Origin: Bacteroidota bacterium | GTDB taxonomy: Bacteria; Bacteroidota; Ignavibacteria; Kapaibacteriales; HRBIN21 | Assembly: GCA_030550395.1 (NCBI GenBank) | Contig: JAUQPL010000001.1 | Span: 131,795 to 195,794, forward strand | DNA length: 64,000 bases | Direction: 5' to 3' | In this document: positions 37,448-44,366 of the stretch, piece by piece | Layout: every line of letters starts with the position of its first letter | Position numbering within the stretch: the first letter of the stretch is position 1 | Notes under the pieces: model-generated | The model's input: the letters and a program-made list of their open reading frames with translations, nothing else | The model's database searches: none | Told to the model about the DNA's origin: nothing | Made by a program: the position numbers and the translations under genes

Positions 37448-37669
37448 TTAGTCCTGAAGCTCAAAAATCTTTCGCCGTGTGGTTGCCCCCTTGATCAGAC
37501 GCAAACGTCCTACAGGAACCTGCAGATAGGCTGCTAACAATTCCTGAATCCGCTTATTCGCTTTTCCATCACGTGGAGCCTCACGCACAGCAACCTCAAA
37601 GACGGCATCATCGAGTTTCACTACCCGTTCTCGCTTTGCCTTTGGCTTCGCATGGACTATCAGGAACAT
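37448..37669 (-). CDS. DUF167 (YggU-like) small protein
   Basis: A 73-residue protein with the DUF167 pattern: VHAKPKAKRERVVKLDD, then VREAPRDGKANKRIQELLAAYL and GRLRLIKGATTRRKIFEL. The family is conserved but of unknown function. A longer frame runs upstream but overlaps the end of the SBBP gene; the ATG at 37669 starts 10 bases past that gene's stop and at the family's normal beginning. Confidence 0.88.
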   Translation of the reverse strand: MFLIVHAKPKAKRERVVKLDDAVFEVAVREAPRDGKANKRIQELLAAYLQVPVGRLRLIKGATTRRKIFELQD

Positions 37670-37679
37670 TGCTGCCGCT

Positions 37680-40334
37680 TTACCGCTTGATAAACCAATA
37701 ACAAAAGTATCTCGCAGGCGTTCTGATACGCAAGAAATAAGCTCCTCGTGCCCAGGCCACGACAGGGATTTTGAAAACAAAGTATCCAGGATTCCAGACC
37801 CGTTGAGCAAAGAGACTGCTGCCGAGGAGGTTTACAACCTCTATGAGCAGCTCACCCGATTCCCCTTCAACAACGCCTCGTATTTCCTCTCTCTCTGGGC
37901 TTAGCTCAATGGAGATTCGTGGAGCGCTGCGAATTTCTCGAACAGCAGAACGCACGAAGACATAGGGGTCCGAAACAGAGCTACATCCTCCTATGGTCAC
38001 CTGAACGTAGTAGGTTCCATCACGTGGCGGGACAAATTCCCGGCCCGTAGCACCAGGAATGGGTTGGCGATTCTCATCCAGCCATTGGTTTCCTGTCAGT
38101 GCACTAGAGACCAGCGTGTCGCCACGACGCCCAATCATAGGTTTGGGCGGACGCGGGAAGAGGTGGACTTGCGCAGAGTTCTGCGAACGCACGGTTCCAC
38201 AATCATTACGGGCTTCCACGGTGTACGTACCCGCTTGCCAGACGCGGACAATGGTATCCCGAGCCCATGGCAGAGCCGTATCGTTGCGGAACCATACGTA
38301 ACGAACTCCCGCTTCACCCGAGATGCGTAACTCTACAGTATCCCCCTCACAGAGGCGAATCTCTCCGGAAGGAGTAAGGAGAGGACGTCGCGGAAGCGGT
38401 CGTACCGTAATAGAGAAGCTCTGCCTTGCTCGGAGGCTACCGCATTCATTGTAAGCTTCTACTGTATACTTTCCCGATTCCATCGCGGCATACATCGTGG
38501 CGTCTCCCGCCACGACCGTAGAATCACGCCACCATCGGTAGTGAACTCCTGGCTGGGGATTAATCACGTACAGGAGCGCCCGACGTCCTTCGCAAAATTC
38601 CGTCTCCCCATCTACTGCAAGCTGTGGTTCAAGAGGACGTTGCTGCGCTGGTACCGGCATTCCATTGTCGTTGCTATAAGCAATGGGCTTGGTTGCTGCA
38701 ATCCGGACCCGATATTGTCCGCCTGGGGGGAGGAATGGGATAAAAACCTGGAAAGATGTGTCCGAACGGGCTTGCAGCGAATCTAACTGCTGCGGTGTCC
38801 GGAAGCTCGCTCCCGCATCAGAAAGCTCAATGATGAACGTGTTATCTACAGCAAACTCCCCGCCCCGGACATTCCACCGCAGCTGGAGGACATCTCCCGT
38901 GCAGAGGACCGAATCAGGCAGTGCTTCTAGCTCAATACTGAGCAGATATCCTCCCAGGCGAAGGATAGCTCCATCATTCAGCCCCGCCAGAGTAGGTTGA
39001 AAGGCATTGGCGGTAACCGGGAAATCTGTACTTCCAGTAACTCCAACAACTGCAACATTCCCTGCACTATCAACAGCCGCGGCAAATGGTTGGTCTGTCC
39101 CCGTTCCTCCATAGAGCAAGCTCCATTGTGGCATCCCCGTCCGGTGGAGTTTCAGCACAAACTTATCTTCACCCCCACTGAGAGATTGTCCTGTCCCGAG
39201 GATGGGAAAATCGCCGCTAGAGGTTTTGCCAACAACGTACAGATTCCCAACCGGATCCGCCGTACAGCTAATTGCTCCATCTGCTTCACTTCCTCCAAAG
39301 AAAGTCGCCCATCGGAATTCCCCCGCAGCGGTAAGCTGCACGATAAAAGCGTCAGAAGCCCCGCCTGCATGGTATGGCTGCCAGACAGGGCTGACTCGTA
39401 TATTCCCACTAGCCGTTGTTCCAACAACCACTATATGTCGGTCTACTGTTACCGCAATGCCATAAGCACGATCGTTATCCGAACCACCGTAATAGGTTGA
39501 CCAATTCAGATTCCCGAACGCTGTAAAACTTGCCACAAAAGCTTCAATGCCTCCTTTTGATGTTCGCTGCATTGCATTGCGCACTGGGAAATTAGGGCTT
39601 GTGGTTTCACCACAGATATAGAGGGTGCGTCGGCTGTCTACTCCAACGCCGTATGCGTAATCAGGTGCTGTACCCCCCAAGTACGTCGCCCACACCCGCG
39701 CCCCATCAGGGCGCAGTTGCACAAGGAAAGCATCGGTGTACCCTGCTAACATAGGCTGAACAGCATTAGAGGTTATGGGAAAATCCGTACTGGAGGTATA
39801 ACCCGTCACCGCAATAAAGCCCTGATTATCGACAGCAATGGCCGTAGCAACGTCATCACCTCCTCCCCCGTAATAGGTTGCCCACAATCGCTGTCCATCG
39901 GAGGAGAATTTGGCTATGAAAGCATCCGTACCCCCTCTTTTGGTACTCTGAAAAGCGCCTGCCACGGGAAAATCACTACTGGCTGTTACTCCAACAACGT
40001 AGAGATTCCCCTCCCGATCAACCCCAACTCCAAGAGCGCGATCGTTGTCGCTACCACCAAAGTAGGTTGCCCAGAGAAGGGAGTTTGTGGGACTGAACTT
40101 TGCAATAACGGCATCTTCTCCCCCCGCCTTTGTACCTTGCCACGCGTTGAGCACTGGGAAATTTACCCCCCACGTCCATCCGACGACGATAAGGCTACCA
40201 TCGACTGCAATAGCAGTAGATCGAATTTCATCCTGTGCTGTTGACCCAAGGTACGTAGCCCATTCCACCGTTGGTTGTGCCCGAATGCCGACCATCGCCC
40301 CCAGCACTCCCAATATCCAGCGGCGTATCCTCAT
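37680..40334 (-). CDS. secreted SBBP-repeat (beta-propeller) protein with Ig-like domains and T9SS sorting domain
   Basis: An 884-residue protein with a signal peptide (ending near residue 20), then seven SBBP repeats of about 62 residues up to about residue 460, each of the form WATYxGGSxxDxAxGxAVDxxGNLYVVGxTxSxDFPV, expected to fold as a propeller. Four Ig/PKD-like domains follow, two with a CEG...CG cysteine pair likely to form disulfides. The last 80 residues (LLIEVVNLLGSSLFAQRV, ARGAYFLRIRTPARYFCYWFI) are a T9SS type A sorting domain. It is a probable cell-surface or adhesin-like protein; ligand unknown. A GTG one codon upstream is also possible. It follows tRNA-Arg(UCG) by 23 bases. Confidence 0.88.
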   Translation of the reverse strand: MRIRRWILGVLGAMVGIRAQPTVEWATYLGSTAQDEIRSTAIAVDGSLIVVGWTWGVNFPVLNAWQGTKAGGEDAVIAKFSPTNSLLWATYFGGSDNDRALGVGVDREGNLYVVGVTASSDFPVAGAFQSTKRGGTDAFIAKFSSDGQRLWATYYGGGGDDVATAIAVDNQGFIAVTGYTSSTDFPITSNAVQPMLAGYTDAFLVQLRPDGARVWATYLGGTAPDYAYGVGVDSRRTLYICGETTSPNFPVRNAMQRTSKGGIEAFVASFTAFGNLNWSTYYGGSDNDRAYGIAVTVDRHIVVVGTTASGNIRVSPVWQPYHAGGASDAFIVQLTAAGEFRWATFFGGSEADGAISCTADPVGNLYVVGKTSSGDFPILGTGQSLSGGEDKFVLKLHRTGMPQWSLLYGGTGTDQPFAAAVDSAGNVAVVGVTGSTDFPVTANAFQPTLAGLNDGAILRLGGYLLSIELEALPDSVLCTGDVLQLRWNVRGGEFAVDNTFIIELSDAGASFRTPQQLDSLQARSDTSFQVFIPFLPPGGQYRVRIAATKPIAYSNDNGMPVPAQQRPLEPQLAVDGETEFCEGRRALLYVINPQPGVHYRWWRDSTVVAGDATMYAAMESGKYTVEAYNECGSLRARQSFSITVRPLPRRPLLTPSGEIRLCEGDTVELRISGEAGVRYVWFRNDTALPWARDTIVRVWQAGTYTVEARNDCGTVRSQNSAQVHLFPRPPKPMIGRRGDTLVSSALTGNQWLDENRQPIPGATGREFVPPRDGTYYVQVTIGGCSSVSDPYVFVRSAVREIRSAPRISIELSPEREEIRGVVEGESGELLIEVVNLLGSSLFAQRVWNPGYFVFKIPVVAWARGAYFLRIRTPARYFCYWFIKR

Positions 40335-40357: not shown

Positions 40358-40430
40358 CGCGCCCGGCAGGACTCGAACCCGCAACCCCCAGATCCGAAGT
40401 CTGGTGCTCTTTCCATTGAGCTACGGGCGC
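40358..40430 (-). tRNA. tRNA-Arg (anticodon UCG)
   Basis: A 73-base cloverleaf without encoded CCA: 7-bp acceptor GCGCCCG/CGGGCGC, D stem GCTC/GAGC, anticodon stem CCAGA/TCTGG with loop CTTCGGA (anticodon at 40396-40398), and T arm GCGGG-TTCGAGT-CCTGC. Anticodon UCG reads CGN-type arginine codons. It lies 16 bases after the rqcH stop and 23 before the SBBP gene, and a TAAATTTG promoter element sits 11 bases upstream. Confidence 0.95.
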
Positions 40431-40441
40431 ATTAACGTGTG

Positions 40442-40449
40442 CAAATTTA
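40442..40449 (-). promoter_or_regulatory. TAnnTTTG promoter -7 element before tRNA-Arg(UCG)
   Basis: TAAATTTG overlaps the TAA stop of rqcH and ends 11 bases before the tRNA 5' end, which is about where transcription would start. A CTGACA lies 21 bases further upstream and could act as a -33 element. Confidence 0.5.
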
Positions 40450-42069
40450 CCGGTTTTTCACCCCCGGTGCTGTCAGTCGGACCCAAACGATCTCCTCTCG
40501 CTCCAGGCGAACAGCTCCTGGAACCCCTTTGACTTTTCGGACATACTTCCGCCACGTATAAGACACGGCAACCATAGCCGTTGTTCGTGCTGTCGAATAG
40601 TAAGCCACGATTGCGGCTGCTTGTTGTAGAATATTTGGCGGTGGAAGTTCCCCTTTTCGCCCTCCCCGAAGAATTCCATGGGCTCCTGGACTCCCCCGAA
40701 CATGGAGGAACAAATCATGAGGACGAGCAAAACCAAAGGTTAGAGCGTCGTTGCTGAAAGCATCCTTGCCCACATACAGGACAAATCCTCGTCCCAAAGG
40801 AAAGACACGTGCCCGCTGCCCTTGCTGGATAGGAACTTCACGCAGAGGAAATCGCTCGTCCAGCCGACGGGCTATATCCCGAAGCTGATGCCTCAGGGTA
40901 GCCTGCTCCAGTTGCTGTTGCATGTGCTGGAGTTCCGCCTGCAGTTGCTGGAGTTGGGGTAAGCAGCTCTGGGCATAGCGGAGAGAGGTCTCCATTCGAC
41001 GGGCTTGCTGGAAGTAATGTTCGGCGTTCTCCCGAATCGTCCATGCTGGATTTAGCAAGATACGCTGAAGATTTCCCCACCAATCCTGTACCTCCAGTTG
41101 CTCAAGGCCGCGCTGACAAAGATCGGGCTGAGACAGCAACAAACTTCCCCACAGTCGGTAGAGCTCAACACGGGTAGCATGGCGCAAATGCACCTCTATA
41201 TCTGCAAGGCGCTTTCCTACCTGTCGTTGATACCGCTGGAGACGCTTCTGAAGCTCTGTGCGCTCTCGTTGGAACTCTTCAAATCGAAGGGTATGCCGTA
41301 CTCTCTCCGCTACTGCCTCATGAAGAGAGAGAAATGCGGCAATGCAATCTGGATACTCTCGCAGGGGAATAAGCGACAGCAGAGGAGGTCCTTGCGGACG
41401 CCGCAGTAACAAAGCTGTACTGCTCTGGGCTATCTCTTGGAGAAGGTGGTGTGCCTCGGCCTCTACCTTGCTTCTCTCTGCTCCGGACAGTTGTGCTAAG
41501 GGTATCTCTGGCTCCACGCCACAGCGGTAGCATACCTCGCGAGCATAGAAGGTACCCAATTGGTAAGCACTTCGAGCTAATGCCTGGTAAAGAGGCGTCT
41601 GAGCATCAAAGGTTTTCCAATCGGGAAGGTATCGGGGCCTGCAAAGTTGTTCGTATGGAGTCTGTGCCTTACTCAGGCAGGAACGTACCGTACCATCAGC
41701 TGCAATAGAGAAGGCCCCACTCTGGGACGTCCCGAAGAGCAACAACACCAACCGATCCCCCGTGTGGAAAAGCCACTCTATCCAGCGTTCTATAGGATGA
41801 AGTGTGAGCGCACGAAGTTCTGCTCCCCACAATTCCTCACCCCATGGTCTTGCTGTCTCTAACTCAGCCCAATACGGCGGACGACGGAAGAAGGTTGTCA
41901 ATCCCGGACGGAGCCAGATATCAATGATGACGGTCTCTTGCGAAGAATTGGAGACCTCAAGTACCAATCCCTGCCGTGGGTACTGTAATAAGCGCAACAC
42001 TCGGGAATGGACAAGCTCAGGGGCAATCTCACGCACTAAACGGGAAAGTGTAGCATGATGGGCAATCAT
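40447..42069 (-). CDS. rqcH: NFACT family protein, RqcH-like (ribosome quality control)
   Basis: A 540-residue NFACT protein. In other bacteria RqcH binds stalled 50S-peptidyl-tRNA and adds C-terminal alanine tails that target the chain for degradation. The N-terminus (LSRLVREIAPELVHSRVLRLLQYPRQGLVLEV) matches the NFACT-N domain; a coiled coil lies at about 270-420; the C-terminal NFACT-R domain has HDLFLHVRGSPGAHGIL. The ATG at 42069 is only 4 bases from the 3' end of the preceding tRNA and has no ribosome-binding site, so processed mRNA would be nearly leaderless. It is framed by two arginine tRNA genes. Some homologues are called fibronectin-binding FbpA. Confidence 0.88.
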   Translation of the reverse strand: MIAHHATLSRLVREIAPELVHSRVLRLLQYPRQGLVLEVSNSSQETVIIDIWLRPGLTTFFRRPPYWAELETARPWGEELWGAELRALTLHPIERWIEWLFHTGDRLVLLLFGTSQSGAFSIAADGTVRSCLSKAQTPYEQLCRPRYLPDWKTFDAQTPLYQALARSAYQLGTFYAREVCYRCGVEPEIPLAQLSGAERSKVEAEAHHLLQEIAQSSTALLLRRPQGPPLLSLIPLREYPDCIAAFLSLHEAVAERVRHTLRFEEFQRERTELQKRLQRYQRQVGKRLADIEVHLRHATRVELYRLWGSLLLSQPDLCQRGLEQLEVQDWWGNLQRILLNPAWTIRENAEHYFQQARRMETSLRYAQSCLPQLQQLQAELQHMQQQLEQATLRHQLRDIARRLDERFPLREVPIQQGQRARVFPLGRGFVLYVGKDAFSNDALTFGFARPHDLFLHVRGSPGAHGILRGGRKGELPPPNILQQAAAIVAYYSTARTTAMVAVSYTWRKYVRKVKGVPGAVRLEREEIVWVRLTAPGVKNR

Positions 42070-42073
42070 AGGG

Positions 42074-42147
42074 CGCGCCCGGCAGGATTTGAACCTGCGA
42101 CCCTCGGCTTAGAAGGCCGATGCTCTATCCCGCTGAGCTACGGGCGC
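42074..42147 (-). tRNA. tRNA-Arg (anticodon UCU)
   Basis: A 74-base cloverleaf without encoded CCA: acceptor GCGCCCG/CGGGCGC, D stem GCTC/GAGC, anticodon stem TCGGC/GCCGA with loop CTTCTAA, and T arm GCAGG-TTCAAAT-CCTGC. Anticodon UCU reads AGA/AGG. Its first base directly follows the TAA stop of the ppiD-like gene, and its last base is 4 bases before the rqcH ATG. Its acceptor stem is identical to that of the other arginine tRNA. Confidence 0.95.
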
Positions 42148-44322
42148 TTAGAACTCCCGATAGAACTTGCTGCGACGATCTTCTATCGCTGCCCTATCCC
42201 GAATGGCCGTGTACCAATAGTAGTACGCCGATGCTTTCGCCGTATTGTAGAGACGGCGGTACAATTCCACAAACTGTCGCTGCTCCATTTTCTTCGGGTC
42301 AGCAACTTCACGCTTGACCACCTGGACGATGAAATAGGCCCGCTCCCCCCGAATCGGTGGTGCAATGACCCCTATGGGCACTCGATACGCCATTGCCGTC
42401 ACAATCGGATCGTTGCCATACCCTTGTAGGAACCCATTGTCCTTGACCATCGTCGCCGTCTGAACCTGAACAGTAGAATCTATTGCCGCGATACGGGCAA
42501 GAATATCCGCCCCCTTAAGGCGCTGATAAACCTTCTCTACATGGCCTCGCAGCACATCTAGCTTCTTGATCCGTCGCACCCGTTCCGTAATTTCCGCCCG
42601 CACGTCGCTGAGCGGCTTATAACCTGGCTTCCGCTCGTCTACTACTTGAGCAACGACAACGCCATAGGGGCGGAGTTCCATAGGATCGGAAACAGTCCCG
42701 ATAGAATTATTGAAGGCAAATTCTGTCAAGGCTCGGGAACCAAGAACAGGGGTTGTAGCCTCAAAAAAGGCAGTCTCAACAGCATTGCGCTTGAGGCGGC
42801 GTGCCAGCGTATCGAAAGGAATTCCTTTCTGTACCTGCTGCTTGAAGCTATAGGCTTCTCGAAAGATTTGATTCCGCCCAGCCGTTCCCAGCGTCACACT
42901 CAATTCAATCTCACTGTAGGCAATACGTTCATCCGACTTTGCATGGACGGCAATAATATGGAAGCCGAACGGGCTCTCTACTGGACCGACGATACTGCCC
43001 GGCTCTGCAGCAAAGGCAGCCTCCTCAAATGGTTTGACCATCCGTCCCCGAGGGAACCATCCAAGGTCCCCACCCCGCTCTGCAGATGCCCGATCTTGGG
43101 AGTACTGACGTGCCAGTTGAGCAAAATCCTCACCAGCTCGAACCCGCCGTAACAGCTTCTGGGCTTCCGAACGAGCGCTGTCCTTATTGGAGCCAAAGCC
43201 GATAAGGATATGACTGGCGTGCACAACCGGCGTATCCCCCTTCTCCCGCTGGTCTACTCGGAAGAAGTAAAATTTCCCTGCTAGCTCTACCGGTCCAATC
43301 ACCGCGCCAACGGGCTTCCCGAGCAAATATGCAGTACGCTGAGGATCGATAGATGCCACCGAAGTTAACCCAACTGACCGTCCCTGGTATTCCGCCATCA
43401 GGAGGGAGAAAACCGAATCTCTTTGTTCTTCGGCAACGGACTCCAATTGACGTTGAATCCGGTCTAAGCGCTTTCGGAAAGCTGCCGTATCTTGTGACGT
43501 AGGCTCCAGAGGGAAAATTACGTACTTGAGCTTTCGCATCGGCTTCTTCTGGCGAAACATCTCCCGGTTCTTCTCATAGTAACGCTCTATGTCTGTCTCC
43601 GCCACCGTTATATCCCGGTCAGGCACACGGTCAATCGAATAAGCAACGTAATGAACTTCTGCTGAACTATTCTCAACACTGTACTGCCGGCGCAGATAGC
43701 TGGGCGAGACGATGCTGCCGATGGCATGGACCAAGGAACGCATGTGTTCGCGAGTGCGGCTCTGCCGCAGGAAATCCTCTATTCGCAACAAGTCCCTCTT
43801 CCATCGCTCCACGACTTCTATGGGATCCACCCCACTATTCGGGTCAACGTAATCGGCCAATCGCTCCGGCTGCGTCACCAGCTCAACGTACCGTTCACGG
43901 TGGAAGCGTCCTGCAGAGTCCGTAAAAGGCTGCTTCATGTAATCAGGAGGATTGTCCAGGAGGATATCCAACAACTCCTCACGAGTAACAGGGAAAGCAA
44001 CTTTCGTTGCTTCCTGTCGGAGCAGAATCTCCTCCACCATTATATCCCAGAGGCTCTGGCGAATTCCCGCCTCATCAATACTGACCTCCTCTCCCGCTGA
44101 CCGCCGCTGTTGCTCCAATTGCTGCTCAAGCCGCTCATTGAAATCCACATAGCGGATCTGCTCATCATTGACCTCCCCAATGACAGCCGTAGCAGGATTC
44201 TCCCCCACCTGGAGTACACGCTGAATATCGGCGTCTGTGGCTACCATAAAGCCAATGAAGACAATGGCAAAAAGCGCTAATAGATACGGGGAAACTTCCC
44301 GCATGCGCGAGATAACACCCAT
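42148..44322 (-). CDS. ppiD: PpiD/SurA-like peptidyl-prolyl isomerase
   Basis: A 724-residue periplasmic folding factor anchored by one N-terminal helix (about 12-30). A SurA-N-like chaperone region follows, then a parvulin rotamase domain in the middle (VVHASHILIGFG, ARQYSQDRASAERGGDLGWFPRGRMVKPFEEAAF, GPVESPFGFHIIAVH), and a second long helical region. This is the PpiD architecture, which helps outer-membrane and secreted proteins fold on leaving the Sec channel. Its TAA stop immediately precedes the first base of tRNA-Arg(UCU). A TAAGTTTG element lies 36 bases before its ATG. Confidence 0.9.
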   Translation of the reverse strand: MGVISRMREVSPYLLALFAIVFIGFMVATDADIQRVLQVGENPATAVIGEVNDEQIRYVDFNERLEQQLEQQRRSAGEEVSIDEAGIRQSLWDIMVEEILLRQEATKVAFPVTREELLDILLDNPPDYMKQPFTDSAGRFHRERYVELVTQPERLADYVDPNSGVDPIEVVERWKRDLLRIEDFLRQSRTREHMRSLVHAIGSIVSPSYLRRQYSVENSSAEVHYVAYSIDRVPDRDITVAETDIERYYEKNREMFRQKKPMRKLKYVIFPLEPTSQDTAAFRKRLDRIQRQLESVAEEQRDSVFSLLMAEYQGRSVGLTSVASIDPQRTAYLLGKPVGAVIGPVELAGKFYFFRVDQREKGDTPVVHASHILIGFGSNKDSARSEAQKLLRRVRAGEDFAQLARQYSQDRASAERGGDLGWFPRGRMVKPFEEAAFAAEPGSIVGPVESPFGFHIIAVHAKSDERIAYSEIELSVTLGTAGRNQIFREAYSFKQQVQKGIPFDTLARRLKRNAVETAFFEATTPVLGSRALTEFAFNNSIGTVSDPMELRPYGVVVAQVVDERKPGYKPLSDVRAEITERVRRIKKLDVLRGHVEKVYQRLKGADILARIAAIDSTVQVQTATMVKDNGFLQGYGNDPIVTAMAYRVPIGVIAPPIRGERAYFIVQVVKREVADPKKMEQRQFVELYRRLYNTAKASAYYYWYTAIRDRAAIEDRRSKFYREF

Positions 44323-44358: not shown

Positions 44359-44366
44359 CAAACTTA
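44359..44366 (-). promoter_or_regulatory. TAnnTTTG promoter -7 element before the ppiD-like gene
   Basis: TAAGTTTG exactly matches TAnnTTTG and ends 36 bases before the ATG at 44322. It would drive ppiD, both arginine tRNAs and rqcH. Confidence 0.5.

Follow-up and report, generated by a model that had tools for sequence, protein, structure and literature searches.

A tRNA-Arg(UCU) gene between ppiD and rqcH as a putative internal cistron of an mRNA operon in hot-spring Kapabacteria

Introduction

How is a tRNA gene expressed and released when it occupies almost all of the space between two protein-coding genes? The question is raised by the window, a stretch of 64,000 nucleotides from a Bacteroidota genome of 1.94 Mb in 15 contigs (G000), in which a tRNA-Arg(UCU) gene lies between a ppiD-like gene and rqcH, and a tRNA-Arg(UCG) gene follows rqcH. 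The initial annotation treated rqcH as nested between the two tRNAs and suggested that a single transcript, once cut by RNase P, would leave a ppiD message ending exactly at its stop codon. Ribosomes stalling on this truncated message were then proposed to tie tRNA processing to the expression of RqcH, a factor acting on the products of stalling. We have followed up these proposals by comparing the locus across the genus, the order and the phylum, by scoring promoter-like elements and by examining the identity and the start codon of rqcH.

Results

All features of the locus lie on the minus strand. The ppiD-like gene (42148..44322, minus strand) encodes a membrane-anchored peptidyl-prolyl isomerase of 724 residues with SurA_N_2 and parvulin domains (Pfam; SurA_N_2, 3e-22; Rotamase_3, 1e-36) and ends in a TAA at 42150-42148. 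Base 42147 is already the first of tRNA-Arg(UCU) (42074..42147, minus strand; ARAGORN and Rfam, 74.6 bits in Rfam), which is the sole copy of its anticodon in the genome. Its discriminator base, G42074, is followed by the four bases CCCT (42070..42073, minus strand) and then by the ATG of rqcH at 42069. The rqcH gene (40447..42069, minus strand; 540 residues) has its stop codon at 40449-40447, and tRNA-Arg(UCG) (40358..40430, minus strand; ARAGORN and Rfam, 69.7 bits in Rfam) lies 16 nt further on. The gaps of 0, 4 and 16 nt described in the initial annotation are all present in the sequence. With crude ORF calls, tRNA-Arg(UCU) alone among the genome's 47 tRNAs sits between same-strand genes with no more than 4 nt on either side. 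Downstream of tRNA-Arg(UCG), a gene for a secreted protein with SBBP beta-propeller repeats (37680..40334, minus strand; domain match) adjoins the block in the genus genomes G002, G004 and G005 as well, and in the 16 kb covered in G001 and G003 nothing matched it. In a mechanical ORF list, the last 130 nt or so of the SBBP gene are shared with a DUF167/YggU-like frame (37448-37810, minus strand), which probably begins further downstream than listed.

The rqcH product can be assigned to the RqcH/NFACT (Rqc2/NEMF) family by its domains. Both NFACT_N (5e-30) and NFACT-R (5e-9) are present, and structures of Bacillus subtilis RqcH in the PDB are matched at 3e-31; alanine tailing on the 50S subunit is a predicted activity. 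The protein differs from the family in a divergent N-terminal domain that the profile barely matches ahead of residue 153, and in the region of the NFACT_N DR motif an E/D-R pair occupies residues 94-95, where the alignment to the B. subtilis protein is not significant. In the window's genome no in-frame ATG, GTG, TTG or near-cognate start occurs upstream of the annotated ATG before a stop at -42, so this ATG is the start. RqcH proteins of several other families align with it from residues 1-3 onwards. No canonical start lies inside the tRNA in any of the six genus genomes, the rqcH ATG being found 2-6 nt past it in every case.

These six genomes are the members of the genus in our collection; they are hot-spring Kapabacteria and belong to the sole genus of its family. 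All six keep the order ppiD, tRNA-Arg(UCU), rqcH, tRNA-Arg(UCG). The gap between the ppiD stop and the tRNA is 0 nt in G000, G003 and G005, 1 nt in G002 and G004, and 6 nt in G001, while that between the tRNA and the rqcH ATG is 4 nt in G000, 5 nt in G003 and G005, 2 nt in G004, 3 nt in G002 and 6 nt in G001. Within the genus RqcH (48-56% identity) evolves much faster than the neighbouring PpiD (74-83%). Outside the genus, in flanks of mostly 1.5-2.5 kb, no tRNA was found near any of 94 rqcH loci (24 from the rest of the order and 70 from other parts of the phylum) or near any of 24 ppiD loci, and viral contigs held no relatives. Since the order is present in all six genus genomes and at none of these outside loci, the arrangement is of long standing in the genus and was not seen in the rest of the sample. 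We rejected a deep tie of the tRNA to either rqcH or ppiD on the basis of the same 94 and 24 loci.

Shared order alone is not special, because gene order is broadly conserved throughout the genus. As a control we inspected the whole neighbourhood, which is syntenic (glycosyltransferase-like genes, a metallo-hydrolase-like gene, ruvC-like and yebC-like genes, among others), as well as a second locus, at which tRNA-Arg(CCG) retains the same downstream gene in 6/6 genomes. With nearly all neighbour genes and the second tRNA locus equally conserved, a conserved neighbourhood was discarded as a sign of functional linkage. The tRNA-Arg(CCG) gene (contig C3:51741 of G000) has its own TAATTTTG element; the gene next to it is TPR-like and is 4 nt off in G000, with a visibly wider distance in several relatives. 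What does exceed chance is the tRNA-Arg(UCU) sandwich itself, on two counts: it is unique in its genome (1/47), and it persists in every genus member (6/6). Plain packing would be another account of this, with a compact genome bringing neighbours close, rqcH expression being incidental and the tRNA having no processing role. The small genome and the synteny preserved across the entire block fit such an account, but other tRNAs of this genome have retained promoters of their own, and tRNA-Arg(CCG), although it too lies beside a conserved gene, is visibly further from the next start, at varying distances, in several relatives. We regard packing as possible but rather doubtful, and it differs little in mechanism from the operon explanation developed below.

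The -7 promoter element of Bacteroidota has the consensus TAnnTTTG (PMC7366714). An exact match was found within 60 nt upstream of 26/36 leading tRNAs of G000, those at the head of a unit, compared with 0.8% of random 60-mers, and the variant TAnnTTCG accounts for four more, bringing the total with an element to 30/36. When scored with a leave-one-out position weight matrix (PWM), trained on the tRNAs of one genome and with a background median of -4.6, 95th percentile of 3.7 and 99th percentile of 7.7, 29/36 leading tRNAs exceeded the 99th percentile. The lowest score of all 36 was that of tRNA-Arg(UCU), which at -10.0 falls under the background median. A missing motif is no proof of a missing promoter, as five other leading tRNAs (Thr-CGU, Ile-GAU, Arg-ACG, Leu-UAG and Ser-UGA) are also without a clear element. 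The tRNA-Ser(UGA) gene (G000 contig C2:79009-79092) lies 21 nt after a same-strand ORF of 258 residues, with no TAnnTTTG within 300 nt, and may be another case in this genome of a tRNA co-transcribed with an mRNA.

Strong elements are found on either side of the block. The predicted -7 element of the putative ppiD - tRNA-Arg(UCU) - rqcH unit, TAAGTTTG (44359..44366, minus strand; TAnnTTTG and PWM), is 44 nt upstream of the ppiD ATG, and a TAnnTTTG is present 44-50 nt upstream of this ATG in 6/6 genus genomes, with PWM scores of 13.5-16.5. At the other end, the predicted -7 element of tRNA-Arg(UCG), TAAATTTG in the window (40442..40449, minus strand; motif and PWM), contains the rqcH stop codon as its TAA. 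In all six genomes the first base of this element, whose sequence is TAAATTTG/TAATTTTG, coincides with that of the rqcH stop (offset 0), 15-19 nt upstream of the tRNA, and the element scores 13.3-15.9. Between the ppiD start and rqcH, on the same strand, no promoter-like element was seen: in none of the six genomes do the 3'-terminal 600 nt of ppiD contain an exact TAnnTTTG, and the last 300 nt hold no PWM candidate above the 95th percentile in any of them, the best reaching 3.0. Given this absence inside and the strong elements flanking the block in 6/6 genomes, we infer that ppiD, tRNA-Arg(UCU) and rqcH are probably made as one transcript. To this extent the single transcript of the initial annotation is upheld, by motifs in six genomes; tRNA-Arg(UCG) has to be taken out of it, as its own strong -7 element in 6/6 genomes points to a separate transcription unit, and the picture of two tRNAs nesting rqcH as a unit is lost with it.

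Alternatively, tRNA-Arg(UCU) and rqcH could be transcribed separately from ppiD, by a promoter concealed within the ppiD reading frame and unlike TAnnTTTG. The five other leading tRNAs without the motif must nevertheless be transcribed, the final ppiD codons (KFYREF and the stop) are highly conserved, and an alternative-sigma promoter inside ppiD is possible. However, over these last 300 nt the matrix gave no candidate above the background 95th percentile in the six genomes, and the encoded protein accounts for the conservation of the 3' end. We consider separate transcripts unlikely.

Elsewhere in the order, 17/21 tRNA-Arg(UCU) loci have an exact motif of their own and four a degenerate one, a count that was read by eye and leaves out three genomes of one family (G009, G018 and G025). 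Because 17/21 outside loci have an element, its absence in the genus is a derived state, and tRNA-Arg(UCU) appears to have lost its promoter, or to have moved without one, in the genus lineage. In G009, G018 and G025, which belong to another family of the order, a TAA stands immediately before tRNA-Arg(UCU) (gap 0), and the tRNA has no exact TAnnTTTG; in two of these three genomes the ORF calls make this TAA the end of an unrelated gene. This abutment of mRNA and tRNA is an independent parallel case.

We then considered what excision of the tRNA would leave behind. The CCA of tRNA-Arg(UCU) is not encoded, as is usual for RNase Z substrates, and a gene for RNase Z was found in the genome, which makes the release of a near-leaderless rqcH mRNA plausible. 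The expected 5' leader in the window would be the CCCU spacer. Leaders shorter than 10 nt make up about 3.7% of messages in Bacteroides thetaiotaomicron (PMC7366714), so that an rqcH leader of 2-6 nt would be uncommon but allowed. The organism appears not to use Shine-Dalgarno sites, their frequency in the window being no higher than background by a strict test (1/36 versus 7%) and weakly above it by a loose one (13/36 versus 23%), and we set aside the missing site before rqcH as uninformative. A gain in accessibility of the rqcH AUG through tRNA excision was likewise dropped, since the prediction is not consistent between genomes (0.46 before and 0.66 after excision in G000, 0.37 and 0.35 in G003).

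The proposed stalling depends on the 5' side of the tRNA. An end exactly at the ppiD stop codon is not maintained, as the gap is 0 nt in just 3/6 genomes. RNase P cleavage would in any case leave the stop codon intact; translation of a ppiD message that keeps its stop should still terminate, and such a message would not count as non-stop. In the classic release assay, a bare stop triplet is enough for release factors to act. Non-stop messages are served by tmRNA, which is present in the genome. As terminating ppiD ribosomes would cover the first tRNA bases, it is more likely that translation delays tRNA folding than that tRNA processing stalls translation. RqcH itself is described as indifferent to what obstructed the 50S subunits on which it acts (PMC11633108).

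A quality-control feedback, in which tRNA excision stalls ppiD translation and links rqcH expression to stalling or to tRNA processing, would find some encouragement in the tight geometry kept in six genomes although RqcH is only about half identical, and in the rare Arg codons that tRNA-Arg(UCU) serves (AGA and AGG make up 8% of Arg codons in sampled genes of the window). Rare Arg codons are classic stall sites. Against it are the variable gap of 0-6 nt, the intact ppiD stop codon, the broad synteny that accounts for the conservation, and the abutment of tRNA-Arg(UCU) with an unrelated gene in another family. A circuit of this kind would be expected to keep the arrangement linked to rqcH across lineages, and no tRNA was found near rqcH at any of the 24 loci sampled from the rest of the order or the 70 from other parts of the phylum. 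We judge this feedback highly improbable, and no finding ties the arrangement to quality control itself.

Discussion

Our preferred reading, to which we give a probability of about three in four, is that ppiD, tRNA-Arg(UCU) and rqcH form an operon from which the tRNA is excised by RNase P and RNase Z, with tRNA-Arg(UCG) forming a unit of its own. The tRNA-Arg(UCU) gene, present in a single copy, would then lie as an internal cistron within an mRNA operon, and the whole transcript would come from one promoter about 45 nt upstream of ppiD. Within this transcript the tRNA would fold; RNase P would cut on its 5' side, at or a few nucleotides from the ppiD stop, and RNase Z after the discriminator base, followed by CCA addition. 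The rqcH gene would be translated either from the message with its 2-6 nt leader or from the uncut precursor. The tRNA-Arg(UCG) gene would be transcribed on its own, from the -7 element that includes the rqcH stop codon. As tRNA-Arg(UCU) reads rare AGA/AGG codons, a modest mRNA promoter could suffice for it. The adjacency would have arisen by lineage-specific rearrangement and compaction in a setting of high synteny, and not as a quality-control circuit.

Mixed mRNA-tRNA operons are well known in bacteria, with thrU-tyrU-glyT-thrT-tufB, metY-rimP-nusA and secG-leuU as examples from E. coli; the tRNAs lead in the tufB operon, and the tRNA follows in secG-leuU. The best reading of ppiD - tRNA-Arg(UCU) - rqcH is as a putative new case within this class, which it would resemble in carrying a tRNA gene on a transcript with protein genes, to be freed by processing enzymes. 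It differs in that the tRNA, which has no promoter-like element, is enclosed by coding sequences at distances of 0-6 nt on both sides. The secG-leuU transcript is found in PMC3985628. A literature search for bacterial tRNA-mRNA sandwiches, partial in its coverage, returned mostly plant and mitochondrial papers, which is weak evidence of novelty.

In vertebrate mitochondria, mRNAs are flanked directly by tRNAs and freed by RNase P and RNase Z (PMC8437803). The locus is similar in that the tRNA abuts both coding sequences (0 and 4 nt in the window, 0-6 and 2-6 nt across the six genomes) and a near-leaderless downstream message is expected. In contrast to this punctuation, which extends over a whole genome, a single tRNA in one chromosomal operon is concerned here, the stop codon is complete and the enzymes are bacterial. 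A closer parallel, in which rqcH would be efficiently translated only once RNase Z has removed tRNA-Arg(UCU), so that the tRNA for rare codons and the stall-clearing factor come in a fixed ratio, seems improbable to us.

The tRNA promoters of Kapabacteria are legible from sequence well enough for exceptions to be singled out, and the exception described here would be a natural case of a single-copy, presumably essential tRNA that relies on an mRNA promoter. As excision of this tRNA would yield a near-leaderless message, the locus may serve to test in bacteria whether tRNA processing sets the expression of flanking genes, as is known from mitochondria.
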